DNA of 11,572 nucleotides from Desulfuromonadales bacterium (GTDB lineage Bacteria > Desulfobacterota > Desulfuromonadia > Desulfuromonadales > BM103): contig DAOWJU010000225.1 in NCBI GenBank assembly GCA_030640215.1, forward strand, positions 1-11,572, written 5' to 3'. Made by a program: the position numbers and the translations under genes. Positions 2,369-8,997 of the stretch are shown one piece after another (the stretch's first letter is position 1; every line of letters starts with the position of its first letter). The notes under the pieces were generated by a model that ran no database searches, had not been told where the DNA came from, and saw nothing but the letters and a program-made list of their open reading frames with translations.

Positions 2369-2578
2369 ATAAAGAATGACTTGCGCTGCGCTGGGCATGT
2401 TGTGCGCCTAAGAGCTGTGGTTTTATATGATTTCCGATAACGAGACAAGAGACTGTCTGGTTTTGTTTGTGCTGCTGATGAGATGGTGGTTTGCTAGATT
2501 CTCGGTAGGGCTGTTGCAGCGACGGGCTACTGGGTTGAAAAGCCAAACTGGAAAATGAAAATATTTTAACTTTTCTTG

Positions 2579-2607
2579 TTGACATGAGTTTATCTTAATG
2601 TTAAAAC
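2579..2607 (+). promoter_or_regulatory. Sigma-70 promoter for the tandem small membrane proteins
   Basis: A perfect -35 TTGACA (2579-2584) is followed 17 bases later by TAAAAC (2602-2607), a fair -10. Directly upstream is an AT-rich tract (2551-2576) containing the palindrome AAAATATTTT flanked by GAAAA and TTTTC, which may act as an UP element or a protein site. The first start codon is about 45 bases downstream of the expected transcription start. Confidence 0.6.
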
Positions 2608-2658
2608 TTTAATCAACAACGAGGAACAAATTACTAGCAAACCGATCAGGAGGTCGTC

Positions 2659-2805
2659 ATGAAAACACAAAGCAACTTTATGGACACAGTAAAAAGTAGT
2701 TATCTGGTTCTGATCATTGCCGCTCTCGGCGTATTTGCTTTCATCTCGGCCGTTCTGATTGCCTGGCCTGCACTCGCCTACATCGGCGCGAAACTTTTCA
2801 ATTAA
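2659..2805 (+). CDS. Small single-pass membrane protein, copy 1 of a tandem paralogous pair (48 aa)
   Basis: The start ATG at 2659 has a strong AGGAGG (2648-2653) 5 bases upstream. The 48-aa product has a short polar N-terminus (MKTQSNFMDTVKSS), one long hydrophobic helix (about 15-40) and a conserved end, with WPAL at 36-39 and GAK.FN at 43-48. It has no cleavable signal motif, so it is probably an integral inner-membrane microprotein. It matches the next gene at 29 of 48 positions without gaps, which strongly supports translation and selection of both. I do not recognise the family. It is followed after 59 bp by its paralog and shares the promoter at 2579-2607. Confidence 0.85.
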   Translation: MKTQSNFMDTVKSSYLVLIIAALGVFAFISAVLIAWPALAYIGAKLFN

Positions 2806-2864
2806 GAACCTGAACTTCAACAACCAACTCTTTCGCCAAGCGAGAGAAACATAGGAGCAACGCC

Positions 2865-3011
2865 ATGAAAAACGCAGCCAATATCGTCAATACCGTAAAA
2901 GCCAATTACACCATCTCCATCATGAGCGTGCTCGGCGTCTTCGCCTTTGTCTCCGCTACTCTGATCGCTTGGCCAGCACTGTCCTACCTTGGTGCAAAGA
3001 TGTTTAACTAA
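2865..3011 (+). CDS. Small single-pass membrane protein, copy 2 of a tandem paralogous pair (48 aa)
   Basis: The ATG at 2865 is preceded by AGGAG (2852-2857 region) at good spacing. The product is exactly as long as copy 1 and aligns end to end with it. Shared blocks include MK at the start, TVK..Y at 10-15, LGVFAF.SA.LIAWPAL.Y at 23-41 and GAK.FN at 43-48. Differences are mostly conservative (I/V, L/M, A/S) in the membrane segment, while the polar N-terminus (3-9) is less conserved. The Trp-Pro inside the membrane helix and the invariant GAK.FN end may form an interaction surface. The function is unknown. Tandem duplication of a microprotein gene suggests either a hetero-oligomer or dosage effects. 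Confidence 0.85.
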   Translation: MKNAANIVNTVKANYTISIMSVLGVFAFVSATLIAWPALSYLGAKMFN

Positions 3012-3025
3012 GCAAGAAGCGGAAA

Positions 3026-3045
3026 GGCCAGGCTCAAGCCTGGCC
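3026..3045 (+). terminator. Perfect hairpin after the small membrane-protein pair (possible terminator)
   Basis: GGCCAGGC (3026-3033) and GCCTGGCC (3038-3045) form a perfect 8-bp GC-rich stem with tetraloop TCAA, 14 bases after the stop codon of the second gene. There is no U-tract, so it could be a transcript-stabilising 3' hairpin or a weak or Rho-assisted terminator. Confidence 0.5.
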
Positions 3046-3237: not shown

Positions 3238-3690
3238 ATGTTTAAAAAAATCATTCTGTGCCTCGCGACCATAACCATAATATTTTCGCTATCAGGTGCC
3301 ACCTTGATGGCGCAGGGTAACAATTCAGACAATCAGAAGAAGAATCAATCTCCGTTCTTGATCACCAGCGAACTTCCACACTTAACAAAGACGTTAATGC
3401 AACAATGGGATAATCCAACATTACAGCTCAGCGAGGAGCAAAAGACGCAATTACTTGTGGTCAGAAAAGAAACCATGACAGGAGTTAAAAGTCTCGCACC
3501 GCAAATCACCTCCCTGCAGAAACAGGTAACAGAGGGTATCTTCCTCGGCAAAACTCCTGACGAGCTGAATGCTGCCGTTCAGTCTATCTCTAAATTGAAG
3601 AGTGAGGCAACGATGATCCACCTGAAATGCATCTACGATACAAGCAAGATTTTGAATCAACAACAACTTGATAATCTATTAAAATATTGA
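3238..3690 (+). CDS. Secreted Spy/CpxP-like LTXXQ-motif protein
   Basis: This 150-aa protein has a signal peptide: Lys-rich start (MFKK), hydrophobic core (5-20) and likely cleavage after LMA (23-25). The mature part is polar and helical. It carries LSEEQ (64-68) followed by a long helix, and LNQQQ (139-143) near the C-terminus. This two-copy L[TS]xxQ pattern is that of the Spy/CpxP/LTXXQ family of periplasmic chaperones and envelope-stress or metal-responsive proteins. A Gln- and Asn-rich linker (27-38) follows the signal. The start has AAAGGAG about 10 bases upstream. A weak promoter candidate, TTGCTT-N19-TATAGC (3184-3214), lies upstream. Assignment is by motif and layout only and similarity to E. 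coli Spy is low; a general extracytoplasmic helical protein is the fallback. Confidence 0.65.
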   Translation: MFKKIILCLATITIIFSLSGATLMAQGNNSDNQKKNQSPFLITSELPHLTKTLMQQWDNPTLQLSEEQKTQLLVVRKETMTGVKSLAPQITSLQKQVTEGIFLGKTPDELNAAVQSISKLKSEATMIHLKCIYDTSKILNQQQLDNLLKY

Positions 3691-3759
3691 GCAATCTATG
3701 CTTCTAAATGTTATGCTTGATTTTTTTAGTAAAGAACGAATTCAAGGCTCGAGAACATT

Positions 3760-4128
3760 ATGAAAAAACATATTCTGGTCATAGATGATGACCCTGTGCT
3801 GTTGGCCATGGTCAGTGATTATCTTGACGAAGCAGGGTTTGCTGTCTCGACAGCGAACTGCGGCATTTATTCAAACAACATCATTTACGGCAACAATCCC
3901 CCAAGCCTGATTGTACTCGACGTCATCATGCCGCTCATGTCCGGCGTCAAAAAGGCCAAGCTGCTCAAGCAGCGCGAAAAAAGTGCCCATATTCCTATTA
4001 TCCTGATGTCTTCCAAGGAGGAGCAGGAGCTCAAGGGGCTGGCCGAAGAAGCGATGGTCAATGATTCTCTGTGTAAGCCCTTTAGTGCAGAACAACTCAT
4101 TGATAAGGTTAAAAAGCTGCTGTCCTAA
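3760..4128 (+). CDS. Stand-alone response-regulator receiver domain (CheY-like)
   Basis: This 122-aa protein consists of one receiver domain and no output domain. The acidic triad is at DDD 9-11, the phospho-acceptor Asp54 lies in LIVLDVIMP, the switch Ser84 in IILMSS, and the conserved Lys106 in CKPF. A complete set of catalytic residues means it should be phosphorylatable. No histidine kinase is nearby, so it is an orphan that may act by protein-protein contact, as a phosphorelay intermediate or in chemotaxis-like control. The start has only a weak AAGG upstream. The upstream gap (3691-3759) holds a T-rich run but no convincing terminator or promoter. Confidence 0.92.
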   Translation: MKKHILVIDDDPVLLAMVSDYLDEAGFAVSTANCGIYSNNIIYGNNPPSLIVLDVIMPLMSGVKKAKLLKQREKSAHIPIILMSSKEEQELKGLAEEAMVNDSLCKPFSAEQLIDKVKKLLS

Positions 4129-4174
4129 CCCATGTTACAGGGTCTTGCCGTCCTGCCAGTTCTCCTTCTCCCGC

Positions 4175-4202
4175 TTGCCTCAAGCCCATCTTGGCTTACA
4201 CT
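4175..4202 (+). promoter_or_regulatory. Candidate sigma-70 promoter before the RelA_SpoT/TPR gene
   Basis: TTGCCT (4175-4180), a 16-base spacer and TACACT (4197-4202) each match the consensus at four of six positions. The spacer holds a small inverted repeat, AAGCC...GGCTT. The start codon is about 36 bases past the expected transcription start. Confidence 0.35.
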
Positions 4203-4244
4203 GTAAGAGTTCGGACTACCCACTTCAAAACTACGGAGTTCTGC

Positions 4245-5486
4245 ATGAAGGACCCCGCAACAAACCATACCCGGCTCCCGGAACGGAACAAGGCCAAAGC
4301 GCTTTATGATCGACAGCTGCCGCGGTACAAGTCGGCTATGCAGCAACTCGCCCAGGATGTTCGCTTAATCCTTGAGCAACAGGGTCTCACTCCGGCGATC
4401 AAGTATCGCGTCAAAAGCTTTGAGGCGTATTTTGACAAGCTTCGCAAACAGAATGCCACCAGCACCAACTCCCGCAGGATGACAATCAACGATTTTTTCG
4501 GTCTGCGTATCGTCTGCCCATTCCTCGAGGATATTGAAACGGTCTCCAGCCTCATTGCCAATCATTTTGAGATTCTGGAAACAGAGCGCAAGGCCAACCA
4601 GCATTCATTCCGTGAGTTCGGCTACGATTCGGTGCATCTGGCTATTCGCCTCGACACGCAGTTGACAGAACGATCAATGCCAGGGGTGCGTAAAGTCTGT
4701 GAGATCCAGCTGCGGACCACATTACAGGAGGCCTGGGCCGAAGTGGAGCATGAGCTGGTCTACAAGTCTGACATATCACTGCCGAACCAGTCGATTCGCC
4801 GCAAGCTGGCTTCTCTCAATGCGACCCTGACCCTCTCTGACTTGATTTTTCAGGAAATTCGCGATTACCAAAAAGATATCCGTCAACACGACCGCAAGCG
4901 TCGCGCTACGATTGAGCGAGATCTCCATGACCCCGACTTTATCGCCATCTCCCATCCTACGAGTACAGTGCCACCCGGCCAAATAGATCCGAGGCCATCA
5001 ACCATGGCCAGTCATCTGGAAAAGACCATGCTGAGCGCCCTGAAAGCCCACAGCAATCACGATCTTGAAAATGCTATTGCCCTCTATGGGCAGTTGCTCG
5101 GCATGCAACTTGACCGTAAAATGCGCGGCCTGGTCTACAACCACCGTGGCATGGCTTACTTCGCCACGGGCAGCTACCAGCGAGCACTCAAAGATTTCTC
5201 CAACGCAATCAGCTACGATCCGGAAAGTGATCGGGGTTATGCCAATCGCGGCCTCTGCTATCGCGTTTTAAAAAAACCTGAAAAGGCCCTGCAGGATTTC
5301 AATCAATCCCTGAGACTCAACCCAAGCCACCCTGATAGCTACTTTGGACGGGCTCAGACTCATTATGATATGCAACAATACCAGCAGGCTCTGGAAGATT
5401 GCGAAAAGGCTCTGAACATCCATTCCGGCTATCAACCCGCTCGAGAGTTGATTAAAACCTTACAGTGCGAATTCTCTGCAGATTGA
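4245..5486 (+). CDS. RelA/SpoT-domain (p)ppGpp synthetase-like protein with C-terminal TPR repeats
   Basis: This is a 413-aa cytoplasmic protein. The N-terminal half (about 45-175) has the RelA_SpoT nucleotidyltransferase pattern: RVKSFEAYFDKLRK (55-68), NDFFGLR (82-88), GYDSVH (126-131), EIQLRT (153-158) and AEVEHELVYK (165-174). These include the Gly-Tyr, His and Glu-Arg positions used for GTP/GDP binding and pyrophosphate transfer. There is no HD hydrolase domain, TGS or ACT, so it resembles a small alarmone synthetase. The C-terminus (about 262-400) has about four TPR units, clearest at 296-327, 330-361 and 364-396, with a Pro-rich linker (237-252). ATG 4245 is chosen because CGGAG precedes it; a TTG at 4191 in frame overlaps the promoter candidate. 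The TPRs suggest control by a partner. Synthesis activity is inferred. Confidence 0.82.
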   Translation: MKDPATNHTRLPERNKAKALYDRQLPRYKSAMQQLAQDVRLILEQQGLTPAIKYRVKSFEAYFDKLRKQNATSTNSRRMTINDFFGLRIVCPFLEDIETVSSLIANHFEILETERKANQHSFREFGYDSVHLAIRLDTQLTERSMPGVRKVCEIQLRTTLQEAWAEVEHELVYKSDISLPNQSIRRKLASLNATLTLSDLIFQEIRDYQKDIRQHDRKRRATIERDLHDPDFIAISHPTSTVPPGQIDPRPSTMASHLEKTMLSALKAHSNHDLENAIALYGQLLGMQLDRKMRGLVYNHRGMAYFATGSYQRALKDFSNAISYDPESDRGYANRGLCYRVLKKPEKALQDFNQSLRLNPSHPDSYFGRAQTHYDMQQYQQALEDCEKALNIHSGYQPARELIKTLQCEFSAD

Positions 5487-5534
5487 ATATCTTGTGACAA
5501 AAGCCAGCAGTCTGTATCATGCCGTGCAACGATC

Positions 5535-6071
5535 ATGACCAAGCAACCAACAAATTCAGACCTTCGGCAACAAGCCGAATCAGCGGTCCGGCAAGCGGAA
5601 GATCGAGCCCGTTACTATTACTCGATCAAGCTACCTGATGCTGCCATCGACTTCTCCTTACGCGGTCGCTGTGCGGGTCAGGCCAGGGTTGATCGCAACG
5701 GTGACACCAACCTGCGCATCAACCATCAGTTACTTGCGGAAAACCTCGATGATTTCCTGAGCAATACCATTCCGCACGAAGTCGCCCACCTGATCGTCAA
5801 CTGGCAAGCCCGTAAAAATCGTCAACGGCCGCGACCACATGGGCCGGAATGGCAAGCTGTCATGCAGGCCTGTTTCAACCTTGAGCCAAAACGTTGCCAC
5901 AGTTATCAGACGACGTCGGCCCGTATTGTACCAAGGCCCTTTCTTTACAGCTGCAACTGCCGTGAGCACCTCCTGACCAGCATCATGCATAACAAGATCT
6001 CTCGTAGCTATCAAGCCCTCTGCAAGGCCTGTAGATCACCCCTCAAATTTATTGTCAAACAGCAAGCATAA
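5535..6071 (+). CDS. sprT: SprT-like zinc metalloprotein
   Basis: This 178-aa protein is close to the usual SprT length (E. coli SprT, 165 aa). The zinc-metalloprotease motif HEVAH is at 81-85, with a third ligand His102 in PHGPEW. A C-terminal zinc-ribbon pattern is formed by Cys140 and Cys142 (CNC), His145 and Cys163-x2-Cys166, as in SprT rather than WSS1. The family includes eukaryotic SPRTN, which cleaves DNA-protein crosslinks; the bacterial role is not settled. The ATG at 5535 lacks a clear Shine-Dalgarno sequence. The gene begins 48 bp after the RelA_SpoT/TPR gene and probably shares its transcript. Confidence 0.88.
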   Translation: MTKQPTNSDLRQQAESAVRQAEDRARYYYSIKLPDAAIDFSLRGRCAGQARVDRNGDTNLRINHQLLAENLDDFLSNTIPHEVAHLIVNWQARKNRQRPRPHGPEWQAVMQACFNLEPKRCHSYQTTSARIVPRPFLYSCNCREHLLTSIMHNKISRSYQALCKACRSPLKFIVKQQA

Positions 6072-6088
6072 GAATCAGGAAACTTACA

Positions 6089-6115
6089 GTGCTACGATTT
6101 TACGATTCGTAGCAC
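6089..6115. promoter_or_regulatory. NikR-like operator upstream of the cbiMQO operon
   Basis: GTGCTAC (6089-6095), 13 bases, then GTAGCAC (6109-6115) make a perfect inverted repeat; the arms extend to 9 bp (GTGCTACGA/TCGTAGCAC). This resembles the GTGTTAC-N13/14-GTAACAC type that I recall for NikR in deltaproteobacteria, and its position, ending 7 bases before the -35, fits. The same hairpin lies 18 bases after the sprT stop and is followed by TTTCC, so a weak sprT terminator is a second reading. Confidence 0.55.
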
Positions 6116-6122
6116 TTTCCCC

Positions 6123-6152
6123 TTGACCAACTCCCCCATGCAACACTAGAGT
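6123..6152 (+). promoter_or_regulatory. Candidate sigma-70 promoter for cbiMQO
   Basis: TTGACC (6123-6128) matches -35 at five of six positions. TAGAGT (6147-6152) after an 18-base spacer matches -10 at four of six. It lies between the NikR-like operator and the leader palindromes, about 110 bases before the cbiM start. Confidence 0.45.
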
Positions 6153-6160
6153 GTCACGAA

Positions 6161-6231
6161 AGCACATATTGTGCTACGTACAGATCCCGTAGCTTCTGCA
6201 TGATTTCACTTGATCCCATGAGAACAAGTGA
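6161..6231 (+). promoter_or_regulatory. Palindromes in the cbiM leader
   Basis: AGCACATATTGTGCT (6161-6175) is a perfect 6+3+6 palindrome whose right half runs into another GTGCTAC half-site (6171-6177). GCTACG (6173-6178) also faces CGTAGC (6188-6193). Further down, TCACTTG (6206-6212) pairs with CAAGTGA (6225-6231) over 7 bp with a 12-base loop. The half-sites repeat the motif of the upstream operator but with different spacing, so they may be secondary repressor contacts. No cobalamin riboswitch core was found. Confidence 0.4.
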
Positions 6232-6271
6232 GCTCCAATCAAGCACAGCGGAGCGAAAAGGAAAACTCACT

Positions 6272-7315
6272 ATGCATATGGCAGATGCACTCGTCTCCCC
6301 GGCCGTAGGTGGAGCGTTCTGGGTGGCCGCCGCCGGAACCATCGCTTACTGTTCGGCGCGTGTACGCAAAGATTTCGATGATCGCAAAGTACCGCTCATG
6401 GGAGTGCTCGGAGCCTTTGTCTTCGCTGCGCAGATGATCAACTTCACCATCCCGGCAACCGGTTCAAGTGGTCATCTTGGCGGAGGACTGCTGCTGGCCA
6501 TTCTGCTCGGCCCCTCTGCGGCCTATCTGACCATCGCCTCGGTGCTGATGGTACAAGCCCTCTTCTTCGCTGATGGCGGCCTGCTCGCTTTAGGCTGCAA
6601 CATGTTCAATCTCGGTGTTTTCCCGGCCTTTATCGCATATCCCTTCATCTACAAAAAACTGGTCGGCCGTGAGCCGCGCCAGGCCAGAATGGTCACCGCA
6701 TCAATCATCGCTGCGGTGGTTGCCTTGCAATTCGGCTCTCTGGGGGTTGTGCTGCAAACGGTTGCTTCGGGGGTCTCCGCCCTGCCGTTCAACGCCTTTG
6801 TCTTGCTGATGCAGCCGATTCATCTCGGCATTGGCGTCGTCGAAGGTGTGGTCACAGCACTGGTTGTTTCCTTTATCTATCAAGCCAGGCCGGATATTTT
6901 AGAGAGTGTTTTACAGGAAAAGCCCCTTGGCAAGATGCCGACAAAATCCCTGTTGGCAGCTTTTCTGATCGCGACCGTACTGATCGGCGGTGTGCTATCC
7001 TGGTTCGCTTCCGAAAATCCTGACGGGCTGGAATGGTCAATTGCGAAGATCACTGGCTCTGCCGAATTGCCGGAGACGGAGCACAAGGAACATGCGAAAC
7101 TGGCCAACCTGCAGGAGAAGACCAGCATCCTTCCCGGCTATGCTCTGCCTGCAGAAGAGGGCCACAGCGAAGATTCGGCCCAGACAGCCAGCGCTGAGCG
7201 AGTTGGCACCAGCCTCTCCGGAATTATTGGCGGAACGCTCACCCTGGTGATCTGCACTCTGATCGGCGTATTCTTAAAGAGACGAACTTCTGCACATCCA
7301 CAACAGGCAAAATAG
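6272..7315 (+). CDS. cbiM: ECF transporter S component CbiM/NikM with fused PDGLE domain (nickel/cobalt uptake)
   Basis: This 347-aa membrane protein captures the metal ion in an ECF-type importer. It starts MHMADALVSP, the CbiM/NikM N-terminus in which the free amine and His2 bind Ni or Co. The further ligand His68 lies in GSSGHLGGG, and FADGGLLALGCNMFNLG (about 117-133) is the usual core motif. After the CbiM domain (about 1-210) come a membrane helix, the PDGLE motif at about 249-253, a long polar loop and a last helix. This replaces a separate CbiN/NikN. ATG 6272 is chosen for its N-terminal His2 and the upstream AAAAGGAAAA; an in-frame start at 6200 would destroy the metal-binding terminus. 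The NikR-like operator suggests nickel, but cobalt is not excluded. Confidence 0.9.
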   Translation: MHMADALVSPAVGGAFWVAAAGTIAYCSARVRKDFDDRKVPLMGVLGAFVFAAQMINFTIPATGSSGHLGGGLLLAILLGPSAAYLTIASVLMVQALFFADGGLLALGCNMFNLGVFPAFIAYPFIYKKLVGREPRQARMVTASIIAAVVALQFGSLGVVLQTVASGVSALPFNAFVLLMQPIHLGIGVVEGVVTALVVSFIYQARPDILESVLQEKPLGKMPTKSLLAAFLIATVLIGGVLSWFASENPDGLEWSIAKITGSAELPETEHKEHAKLANLQEKTSILPGYALPAEEGHSEDSAQTASAERVGTSLSGIIGGTLTLVICTLIGVFLKRRTSAHPQQAK

Positions 7316-7363
7316 CGACGTGATTATCAGCCTCCTAAATAATCCGGGCAACGGGGAACCCTG

Positions 7364-8179
7364 ATGCTGGCAATCGACGGCTCGTTTCTCGATTTTAAAC
7401 AGCTCGATCTGCTCGCTCTGCGGCAGACGCCCGTCCATCGCCTCGACTCGCGCGCCAAGGTTCTGACCACGCTCTGCTTCACCATCTGCGTGGTCTCTTT
7501 CGATCGCTACCAGATATCCGCAATGCTACCGTTTCTGATCTATCCCGCAGTTTTGATGGCAATCGGCGACCTGCCTTTCGGCTATATCATGCGCAAAATC
7601 GTCATTGTGATTCCCTTCGCCCTGATGATCGGCCTGTTCAACCCGATCTTTGACCGCCAGGTACTGATGCAGATCGGTTCACTCGATATCTGGGGTGGCT
7701 GGATCTCCTGCATCTCGATCCTGGTTCGCGCTATTCTCACGGCCAGCGCCGCCATTATCCTGGTTGCGATAACCGGCTTTCCGGCAATCTGTGAGGCACT
7801 GGAAAAGCTGAAAATGCCGCAGACTTTCGCCGTACAACTGCTCTTTCTCTACCGCTACATATTTGTCCTCACTGATGAGGGCGTGCGCACCGCACGGGCT
7901 CGTCAGCTACGCACCTTCGGCAAGCGGGGGCTCGGTATCCGTCATTTCGGTTCTCTGGTCGGCCATCTGCTGCTGCGCACCTGGGAGCGGGCCGAACGCA
8001 TCCATATGGCGATGCTGGCGCGCGGCTTTGCCGGAGAAGTCCACTCAACCCGTCGGCAAAGCCATTTTGGTCGAGCGGAGCTGCTTTTCATGAGCGGCTG
8101 GATCAGCCTTTTTATTCTGCTGCGTCTCTACAATGCCCCGCAACTGCTCGGCGGCCTTTTTACAGGAACACTGCCATGA
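7364..8179 (+). CDS. cbiQ: ECF transporter transmembrane component CbiQ/NikQ
   Basis: This 271-aa T component links the metal-binding S component to the ATPase. It has several hydrophobic helices (about 35-55, 58-75, 85-102, 115-145 and 240-260). The conserved cytoplasmic coupling region includes TARARQLRTFG (about 181-191) and ERAERIHMAMLARGF (about 212-226); the second Ala-Arg-Gly motif is intact and the first reads Ala-Arg-Gln. The N-terminal VHRLDSRAKV is typical of CbiQ. The start ATG has GGGGA upstream. The gene follows cbiM after 48 bp, and its stop overlaps the cbiO start by 4 bases (ATGA), indicating translational coupling. Confidence 0.92.
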   Translation: MLAIDGSFLDFKQLDLLALRQTPVHRLDSRAKVLTTLCFTICVVSFDRYQISAMLPFLIYPAVLMAIGDLPFGYIMRKIVIVIPFALMIGLFNPIFDRQVLMQIGSLDIWGGWISCISILVRAILTASAAIILVAITGFPAICEALEKLKMPQTFAVQLLFLYRYIFVLTDEGVRTARARQLRTFGKRGLGIRHFGSLVGHLLLRTWERAERIHMAMLARGFAGEVHSTRRQSHFGRAELLFMSGWISLFILLRLYNAPQLLGGLFTGTLP

Positions 8180-8997
8180 GTCATCATATTGTCCACGTCA
8201 AGAATCTGCAGCACACCTACCCTGATGAAACCGTTGCTCTGCGCGACGTCTCTTTTCTGATTCATCATGGCGAATCGGTGGGCATTATTGGCGCAAATGG
8301 TGCTGGCAAATCGACCCTACTACTTCACCTCAATGGCTACCTCTCGGCAACTTCGGGTGAAATTATCATCGGCGATGACCAGCTCTCGAAAGAAACATTG
8401 CCTGAGATCAGACGCACCGTGGGGATGGTCTTTCAAGACCCGGAAGATCAGCTCTTTATGCCGACAGTTTACGATGACGTTGCCTTCGGTCCGCTTAACC
8501 TTGGTCTTGATCCGGACGAAGTCGAAACCCGAGTGATGGAAGCGCTGCAGCGCGTTGAGGCCGTCGAATTGCGCAATAAACCTCCTTACCACCTCTCCGG
8601 CGGTGAGAAAAAACGTGTGGCCATTGCCACCGTGCTCTCCATGCTACCCGAGATACTGGTCCTCGATGAGCCGACTAACGGTCTCGATCCGCAGGCACGC
8701 CGACAATTGATTGCCCTGCTTCAGGCCTTTCATCATACGCGTATTGTTACCAGTCACGACCTGGATATGGTTCTGGAGCTATGTGAACGCACCATTGTTC
8801 TGCACGAAGGTAAGGTCATGGCCGATGGCCCGACTCTGGATATTTTCAACAACGAGGAATTACTCAAAACCTGCAGGCTCGAAAAACCGTTTGCCATGCA
8901 GGCCTGCCCGGTCTGTTCTCCTGACAAACGACCTCTCGTCAGCCAGCCTCCCCTGGTCCCTCCGCACAGCAATAAACCGCATGATCATGAACATTGA
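8176..8997 (+). CDS. cbiO: ECF transporter ATPase CbiO/NikO with Cys/His-rich C-terminal tail
   Basis: This 273-aa cytoplasmic ABC ATPase energises metal uptake. It has Walker A GANGAGKST (39-47), Q-loop Gln87 in VFQDPEDQLF, signature LSGGEKKR (140-147), Walker B LVLDEP (161-166, catalytic Glu165), the D-loop after it, and switch His194. The PEDQLF stretch is characteristic of ECF-type ATPases. The C-terminal tail after the core has CPVC (244-247) and ends HSNKPHDHEH (264-273), a likely extra metal-binding segment. It is co-transcribed with cbiM and cbiQ. One ATPase gene only, so the ATPase pair is probably a CbiO homodimer. Confidence 0.93.
   Translation: MSHHIVHVKNLQHTYPDETVALRDVSFLIHHGESVGIIGANGAGKSTLLLHLNGYLSATSGEIIIGDDQLSKETLPEIRRTVGMVFQDPEDQLFMPTVYDDVAFGPLNLGLDPDEVETRVMEALQRVEAVELRNKPPYHLSGGEKKRVAIATVLSMLPEILVLDEPTNGLDPQARRQLIALLQAFHHTRIVTSHDLDMVLELCERTIVLHEGKVMADGPTLDIFNNEELLKTCRLEKPFAMQACPVCSPDKRPLVSQPPLVPPHSNKPHDHEH

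Follow-up and report, generated by a model that had tools for sequence, protein, structure and literature searches.

Putative accessory single-helix membrane proteins encoded near quinol-oxidising cytochrome genes in Desulfuromonadia

What might a bacterium do with two adjacent genes that each encode a membrane protein of only 48 residues and belong to no described family? The question is raised by the window, i.e. the whole stretch of 11,572 nucleotides that was analysed, which is contig DAOWJU010000225.1 (here C180) of the Desulfuromonadales draft genome GCA_030640215.1 (2.7 Mb, 83% complete). A sequence-only reading of the window had singled out the two genes, here called A and B, and had proposed that they form a hetero-oligomer, a subunit of a larger membrane complex or a stress-induced membrane factor.

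The gene pair and its surroundings in the window

The basic description given by that reading holds. The two genes of equal length, said to match at 29 of 48 residues without gaps, are both intact and 60% identical over 48 residues; a strong ribosome-binding site can be read upstream of each, the pair has a promoter of its own inside a block that is kept upstream of 17 aligned units, and the shared 3' hairpin is found as a perfect stem, with the T run absent. The features are as follows.

2557..2578, + strand: A+T-rich block directly 5' of the -35 box, which we take to be UP-element-like, kept across the 17 aligned units
2579..2607, + strand: promoter, with -35 TTGACA (2579-2584), a 17-base spacer and -10 TAAAAC (2602-2607), from the 17-unit alignment
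2648..2653, + strand: ribosome-binding site of gene A, AGGAGG, read directly, with GGAGG invariant in the 17-unit alignment
2659..2805, + strand: gene A, 48-residue membrane protein (open reading frame list, protein search, dN/dS)
2853..2857, + strand: ribosome-binding site of gene B, AGGAG, read directly
2865..3011, + strand: gene B, 48-residue membrane protein, 60% identical to A (open reading frame list, alignment, dN/dS, AlphaFold model)
3026..3045, + strand: 3' hairpin with a perfect 8-bp stem and a loop of 4, without a T run (folding)

The hairpin folds with -18.2 kcal/mol (z -2.4) and is a possible transcript end; the equivalent 3' region forms a strong terminator-like hairpin in genome G302 (z -6.6) and does not fold above shuffles at the copy on contig C323 of the window's own genome (z -0.17). 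TTGACAT is present upstream of 17 of the 17 aligned units and the -10 box is variable. A consensus promoter scan, with 9 matches against 8.6 in shuffles, did not list 2579-2607 because its rule needs a final T. In the own genome the exact element TTGACAT-N10-TAATGTTAA is confined to the three loci of the protein family described below; G302, G312 and G308 have it at two sites each, all of them family loci, and at a further such locus, the third of G308, it has one mismatch.

In several members of the window's taxonomic family a looser form of this element stands before the small pair, before CbcL and before a cytochrome-FeS-NrfD operon; in the own genome the CbcL that follows it is cut off by the contig end. 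A shared regulon of the pair, CbcL and the NrfD operon was considered and rejected, since the same element also precedes nucleoside diphosphate kinase (Pfam NDK) in a scan of eight genomes (20 stretches viewed) and, with one mismatch, tRNA genes, the tRNA-Val/threonyl-tRNA synthetase region, a class-III aminotransferase and an IclR-type regulator. As it stands before NDK and tRNA genes, the element is a general promoter form and no evidence of co-regulation; judged by its sequence it is read as a mark of probably strong general transcription and not of a regulon. For the same reason the idea of a stress-induced membrane factor gains no support.

The neighbours of the pair, as named by profile scans, are an AspT-like antiporter, a 64-residue open reading frame, a 150-residue protein and a lone receiver domain, followed by RelA/SpoT-TPR, SprT and CbiM-CbiQ genes and by CbiO- and SucCD-like frames (the last two named by eye), and they include no obvious partner for A and B. 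A hydrophobic 55-residue frame without a Pfam match lies 5' of the pair on the opposite strand (2026-2193, -). The segment 3238-4128 (+) encodes the 150-residue protein, which has a signal-like start and no Pfam match, and then the stand-alone receiver domain. At 4191-5486 (+, scanned from 4245) a RelA/SpoT synthetase domain is joined to C-terminal TPR repeats, to our knowledge an unusual architecture, and at 6200-8997 (+) a cobalt ECF transporter consists of CbiM fused to a PDGLE (CbiN-like) domain, CbiQ and an ABC ATPase-like frame.

A conserved family of small membrane proteins

A and B belong to a real, undescribed family of proteins of mostly 47-54 residues. A protein search with A returned 319 proteins at E <= 10, the best 120 of which all have E <= 2.4e-16 and 105 of these 120 are 48 residues long; a profile built from 28 relatives gave 191 matches at E <= 0.01. 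Among the matches listed, the source names are hypothetical proteins of Desulfuromonadales, Desulfuromonadaceae, Geobacteraceae, Desulfuromonas, Trichlorobacter thiogenes or no named organism, with the exception of P0305, which is labelled 'cytochrome c oxidase assembly factor CtaG'. B as query against species genomes, a scan which covers close relatives only, yielded 28 loci with titles of Desulfuromonadales, Deltaproteobacteria or Geobacteraceae. The case in which homologues were absent outside this locus, which the sequence-only reading had allowed for, does not apply: the family is present in 61 of the 277 genomes and 30 of the 82 genera of the window's class (50 of 277 genomes with B alone as query, including 22 listed genomes of the window's taxonomic family). 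Among 297 sampled genomes from across the phylum six match, five of them inside the class; the only match outside it in this sample is partial, 27 residues within a 752-residue open frame.

The statement that no described family has this pattern agrees with the searches of Pfam, NCBIfam, PHROGs, PADLOC and PDB. Neither A and B nor the 28 relatives match a Pfam or NCBIfam family above cut-off (the best scattered matches of the relatives have E 0.0083 and 0.0058), and placement in a known small-subunit family, the other case that had been foreseen, is likewise without a profile above cut-off. With PHROGs, A and B reach only E 0.15 or worse; with PADLOC, the 28 relatives reach two families at E 0.026 and 0.037 with one member each; PDB and Rfam searches gave nothing usable, and no account of such proteins was seen among the titles and abstract openings of the open-access literature searched. 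A phage or defence protein was set aside on the PHROGs and PADLOC results. Chance open reading frames or a non-coding repeat are refuted by the homologues, by the conserved ribosome-binding sites and by dN/dS near 0.1, the values in 21 related units being 0.08 for A and 0.11 for B (159 of 210 pairs kept for each, dS 0.1-1.5), which shows purifying selection. In the topology of a midpoint-rooted tree of these 21 units A and B form separate groups, and the duplication which gave rise to them therefore predates these genomes.

The alignment of 28 members has nearly invariant columns at G24, W36, P37 and L39. The residues at positions 24, 27, 31, 35 and 38 are each small in at least 93% of the 28 rows and therefore form a small-residue ridge on one helix face, and position 45 is Lys or Arg in 26 of 28 rows. 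A single AlphaFold model shows helices at 2-34 and 36-47 with a break at 35 (mean pLDDT 88) and, together with the hydrophobicity, predicts a single-pass topology. The alignment has no conserved Cys, and at position 41 Tyr and His are equally frequent, with 12 of the 28 rows each; the frequent Tyr led to the rejection of His41 as a haem ligand. In several lineages the WPAL type is joined by a second archetype, 50-54 residues long and with W-S instead of W-P, whose profile has 97 matches. The WPAL and WS profiles align with a probability of 95.8% (E 7.5e-9), so that the two archetypes are akin; an earlier joint search was seeded with both and carries no weight for their kinship. In seven hand-picked pairs the partners have between 4 and 8 of their ten N-terminal residues in common, and a few members have extended N-termini and reach up to 72 residues.

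The 60 loci hold two members in 34 cases, one in 17, three in four, four in three and five in two, as counted within the sequence stretch taken, and some single-member loci lie at contig ends (L048, L054). Single members on the ImcH side are found at L059, L066, L069 and L076 and on contig C283 of the own genome. With 17 of 60 loci holding one copy, several of them on the ImcH side, the hetero-oligomer deduced from the tandem duplication is not supported in the form of an obligate A/B complex. The single gene on C283 (G000:C283 5102-5248, L039) matches gene A at its front and B of C323 at its 3' end and in the downstream DNA, and from its sequence looks like a chimera produced by deletion between tandem genes, or an assembly error.

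Near-identical units occur at two loci with unrelated flanks in G302 (100% over 531 bp), G312 (97% over 457 bp) and G310 (94% over 543 bp), and paralogous units are less alike in G000 (0.82), G309 (0.79) and G308 (0.82-0.91). Most genomes are metagenome-derived drafts with contig ends sometimes inside these repeats. Transposition of the units of about 450-540 bp and 94-100% identity was considered, and it seems simpler to assume that the transcription unit was duplicated or underwent gene conversion. An AspT antiporter also lies within about 5 kb of the pair in the stretches from G309 and G311, and the A and B of the window cluster with the A and B of G309 and its B also with that of G311. The copy in the window counts among the dispersed duplicates and has no respiratory gene beside it.

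Linkage to CbcL-, ImcH- and NrfD-type genes

When the neighbours at 60 loci were clustered, and each cluster named by scanning one member, a class of 615-residue proteins was found at 15 loci, one of 487 residues at 13, NrfD proteins at 12 and iron-sulphur proteins at 11. All 48 sequences of the 615-residue protein contain nine CXXCH motifs, and its C-terminal half is hydrophobic; the protein is regarded as CbcL-like because this agrees with CbcL, which is described as having nine c-type haems and six helices (PMC9129911, PMC6295460). The 487-residue protein, with a hydrophobic N-terminal part and, as counted by eye, one CX3CH and five CX2CH motifs, is regarded as ImcH-like because its architecture agrees with the published ImcH description, and the cytochrome, FeS and NrfD neighbour genes resemble CbcSTU (PMC11434368); all of these identifications rest on architecture and published descriptions and not on Geobacter sulfurreducens reference sequences.

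A CbcL- or ImcH-like gene lies within 1, 3, 5 and 10 kb of a family site in 32, 39, 41 and 42 of the 61 family-bearing genomes, as compared with 0.2, 0.4, 0.5 and 1.0 genomes expected from uniform placement in a 3.2-Mb genome, and the corresponding counts by site are 33, 41, 43 and 45 of 111; these are counts among the matches listed, with the CbcL positions for three genomes taken from the locus sequences. At distances under 3 kb, adjacency to such an enzyme is thus a property of the family (39 of 61 genomes) and not of the window copy, which with most rubrerythrin-side copies is among the 70 of 111 sites more than 3 kb away. In 19 of the 61 genomes no site lies within 10 kb, a part of which may be explained by broken contigs or by matches outside those listed. 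Since the genomes are related, which inflates the linkage counts, these counts and the tree shuffles described below are not independent evidence. On C283 of the own genome the family copy is flanked by NrfD (3537-4841) on one side and by an ImcH-like gene (5525-6988) on the other; in G302 and G312 the gene order is the same, with a pair at this position and CbcL 6-10 kb away. G548 has three family loci, one of which is 0.8 kb from CbcL. Of the earlier proposals it is therefore the subunit of a larger membrane complex that receives genomic support, through the linkage to CbcL, ImcH and NrfD genes. At L038 (3731-4195) a 154-residue gene is convergent to the pairs, likewise at L041, L042, L044, L053 and L055, and the L038 member matches rubrerythrin.

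A one-strand order of small membrane proteins, a Zn-ribbon HTH gene and CbcL is found at loci of families f4, f2, f106, f109 and f112. At L081 (2828-4375) and its equivalents, a frame of 103-137 residues without a Pfam match stands before the pair, and a 253-residue protein with a transposase-like Zn ribbon stands between the pair and CbcL. All 14 of the best-scoring CbcL-like rows (73-100% identity) have a family member within 0.9 kb. An 81% CbcL-like row on contig C79 of G452 is incomplete and starts at a contig end, and as the family match of G452 is likewise at the end of another contig, this case says nothing either way. Of 48 CbcLs chosen for a tree, the 13 of the operon type stand together with a single change (mean of the shuffles 10.4, none of 500 as low) at a weak branch support of 81/39; they span families f4, f5 and f112 and are apart from 14 CbcLs of family-free genomes, congeners included. 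Five other family-adjacent CbcLs need two changes, and 16 ungrouped CbcLs from the window's taxonomic family fall on the family-free side, so that the small proteins are not confined to one CbcL lineage. As regards co-inheritance, one CbcL lineage groups by family presence at this weak support, and most genomes with CbcL or ImcH are without the family. Of the 277 class genomes, 214 have CbcL-like genes (E <= 1e-60), 182 have ImcH-like genes (E <= 1e-40) and 61 have the family, which is therefore not needed by either enzyme. In genus g8 an ImcH-like match is found in none of 11 family-bearing genomes and in two family-free ones; this pattern is a lead only, and G498 and G478 have both.

A putative role beside quinol-oxidising complexes

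It is proposed, with a probability of roughly 45%, that the A/B family are putative accessory single-helix subunits of CbcL-, ImcH- and CbcSTU/NrfD-type quinol-oxidising complexes. A helper role in the machinery of electron export is probable because family copies often adjoin these enzymes. The host complexes would be the inner-membrane quinol oxidisers that start extracellular electron transfer in Desulfuromonadia. The helix would lie in the cytoplasmic membrane, where the ridge of G24, A27, A31, A35 and A38 could pack on a cytochrome helix or on another copy, the nearly invariant Trp-Pro would kink the helix near one membrane face, and Lys/Arg 45 may anchor its end. Working in the manner of CydX or CcoQ, the subunit might then lend stability to the b-type or NapC-like part in the membrane or influence the form of the quinol site, an effect ascribed to CydX in cytochrome bd. 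The multi-copy unit, its strong-looking promoter and the near-identical copies in some genomes would be consistent with subunits supplied in trans, and such supply would explain the copies away from cytochrome genes, including the one in the window.

Small subunits are easily overlooked by annotation and proteomics. If the proposal is true, a component is missing, for many Desulfuromonadia, from the models of how extracellular electron transfer begins. CbcL and ImcH, which decide the redox potential at which Geobacter respires metals and electrodes (PMC6148476), are each described as one polypeptide with its domains (PMC9129911, PMC6295460). A further idea, which we regard as speculative and somewhat doubtful, is that the small proteins set the working of this quinol gate, that CbcL and ImcH enzymes with them differ in potential or stability from those without, and that a homogenised cassette supplies several quinol oxidases per membrane.

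The same observations can be read in other ways. The proteins could be general membrane modulators, i.e. abundant single-helix proteins which tune the bilayer or the proton-motive force and have been inserted repeatedly beside strongly expressed loci, as is suggested by the many dispersed copies with unrelated neighbours, by the promoter form common to NDK and tRNA genes and by the near-identical copies in one genome (G302, 531 bp, 100%); E. coli YohP, a small membrane protein, is a precedent in that it lowers the membrane potential (PMC12719787). Neither the one-strand arrangement with one CbcL lineage nor the 33 of 111 sites within 1 kb of CbcL or ImcH is predicted by this explanation, however, and it is considered unlikely. 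The linkage data would serve equally well for assembly or maturation helpers which assist the insertion or haem loading of the CbcL, ImcH or NrfD partners and are absent from the finished enzyme, and the CtaG label of the relative P0305 points weakly the same way; the missing conserved Cys in 28 rows and a position 41 divided between Tyr and His argue against it and make it quite unlikely.

A role as regulators or sensors, in which single-pass proteins would restrain or adjust the quinol oxidases or a sensor in the membrane, depending on redox state, could be seen in the Zn-ribbon HTH gene that adjoins the pair in the CbcL operon and in a receiver-like neighbour cluster at nine loci including the window (the window's member alone was scanned), but receiver domains are common genes and no sensor partner is conserved across the 60 loci, which leaves such a role distinctly improbable. 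Type I toxins or leaderless two-peptide bacteriocins that depolarise membranes would share the length, hydrophobicity, tandem paralogues and several copies per genome. Type I toxin mRNAs usually hide their translation start by folding, whereas around the start of gene A folding does not exceed that expected by chance (z 0.44), the promoter of the gene looks strong, and no toxin family was found above cut-off in Pfam, NCBIfam or PADLOC, so that this explanation is very improbable indeed.

The accessory subunits proposed here can be compared with several known systems. Cytochrome b6f has several different one-helix subunits, PetG, PetL, PetM and PetN, around its cytochrome b core, and A and B match none of them in the libraries searched. 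The YqaE/Pmp3 stress peptides are of about 50 residues and often occur in several copies, but they have two helices and their own Pfam family, whereas A and B have no Pfam match and a single kinked helix in the AlphaFold prediction. YohP of E. coli (27 residues; PMC12719787) and the stress-linked small membrane proteins of that bacterium are likewise small, but the promoter form of A and B is common to housekeeping genes. CydX, the small subunit of cytochrome bd, and CcoQ and CcoS are small proteins of membrane electron-transfer complexes (PMC10903887), from which A and B differ in matching no curated profile, in being tandem paralogues with several copies per genome and in that their partners would be of the CbcL/ImcH type. 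What they have in common is that all are small membrane proteins, and the placement of A and B in electron-transfer complexes is the proposal made here.
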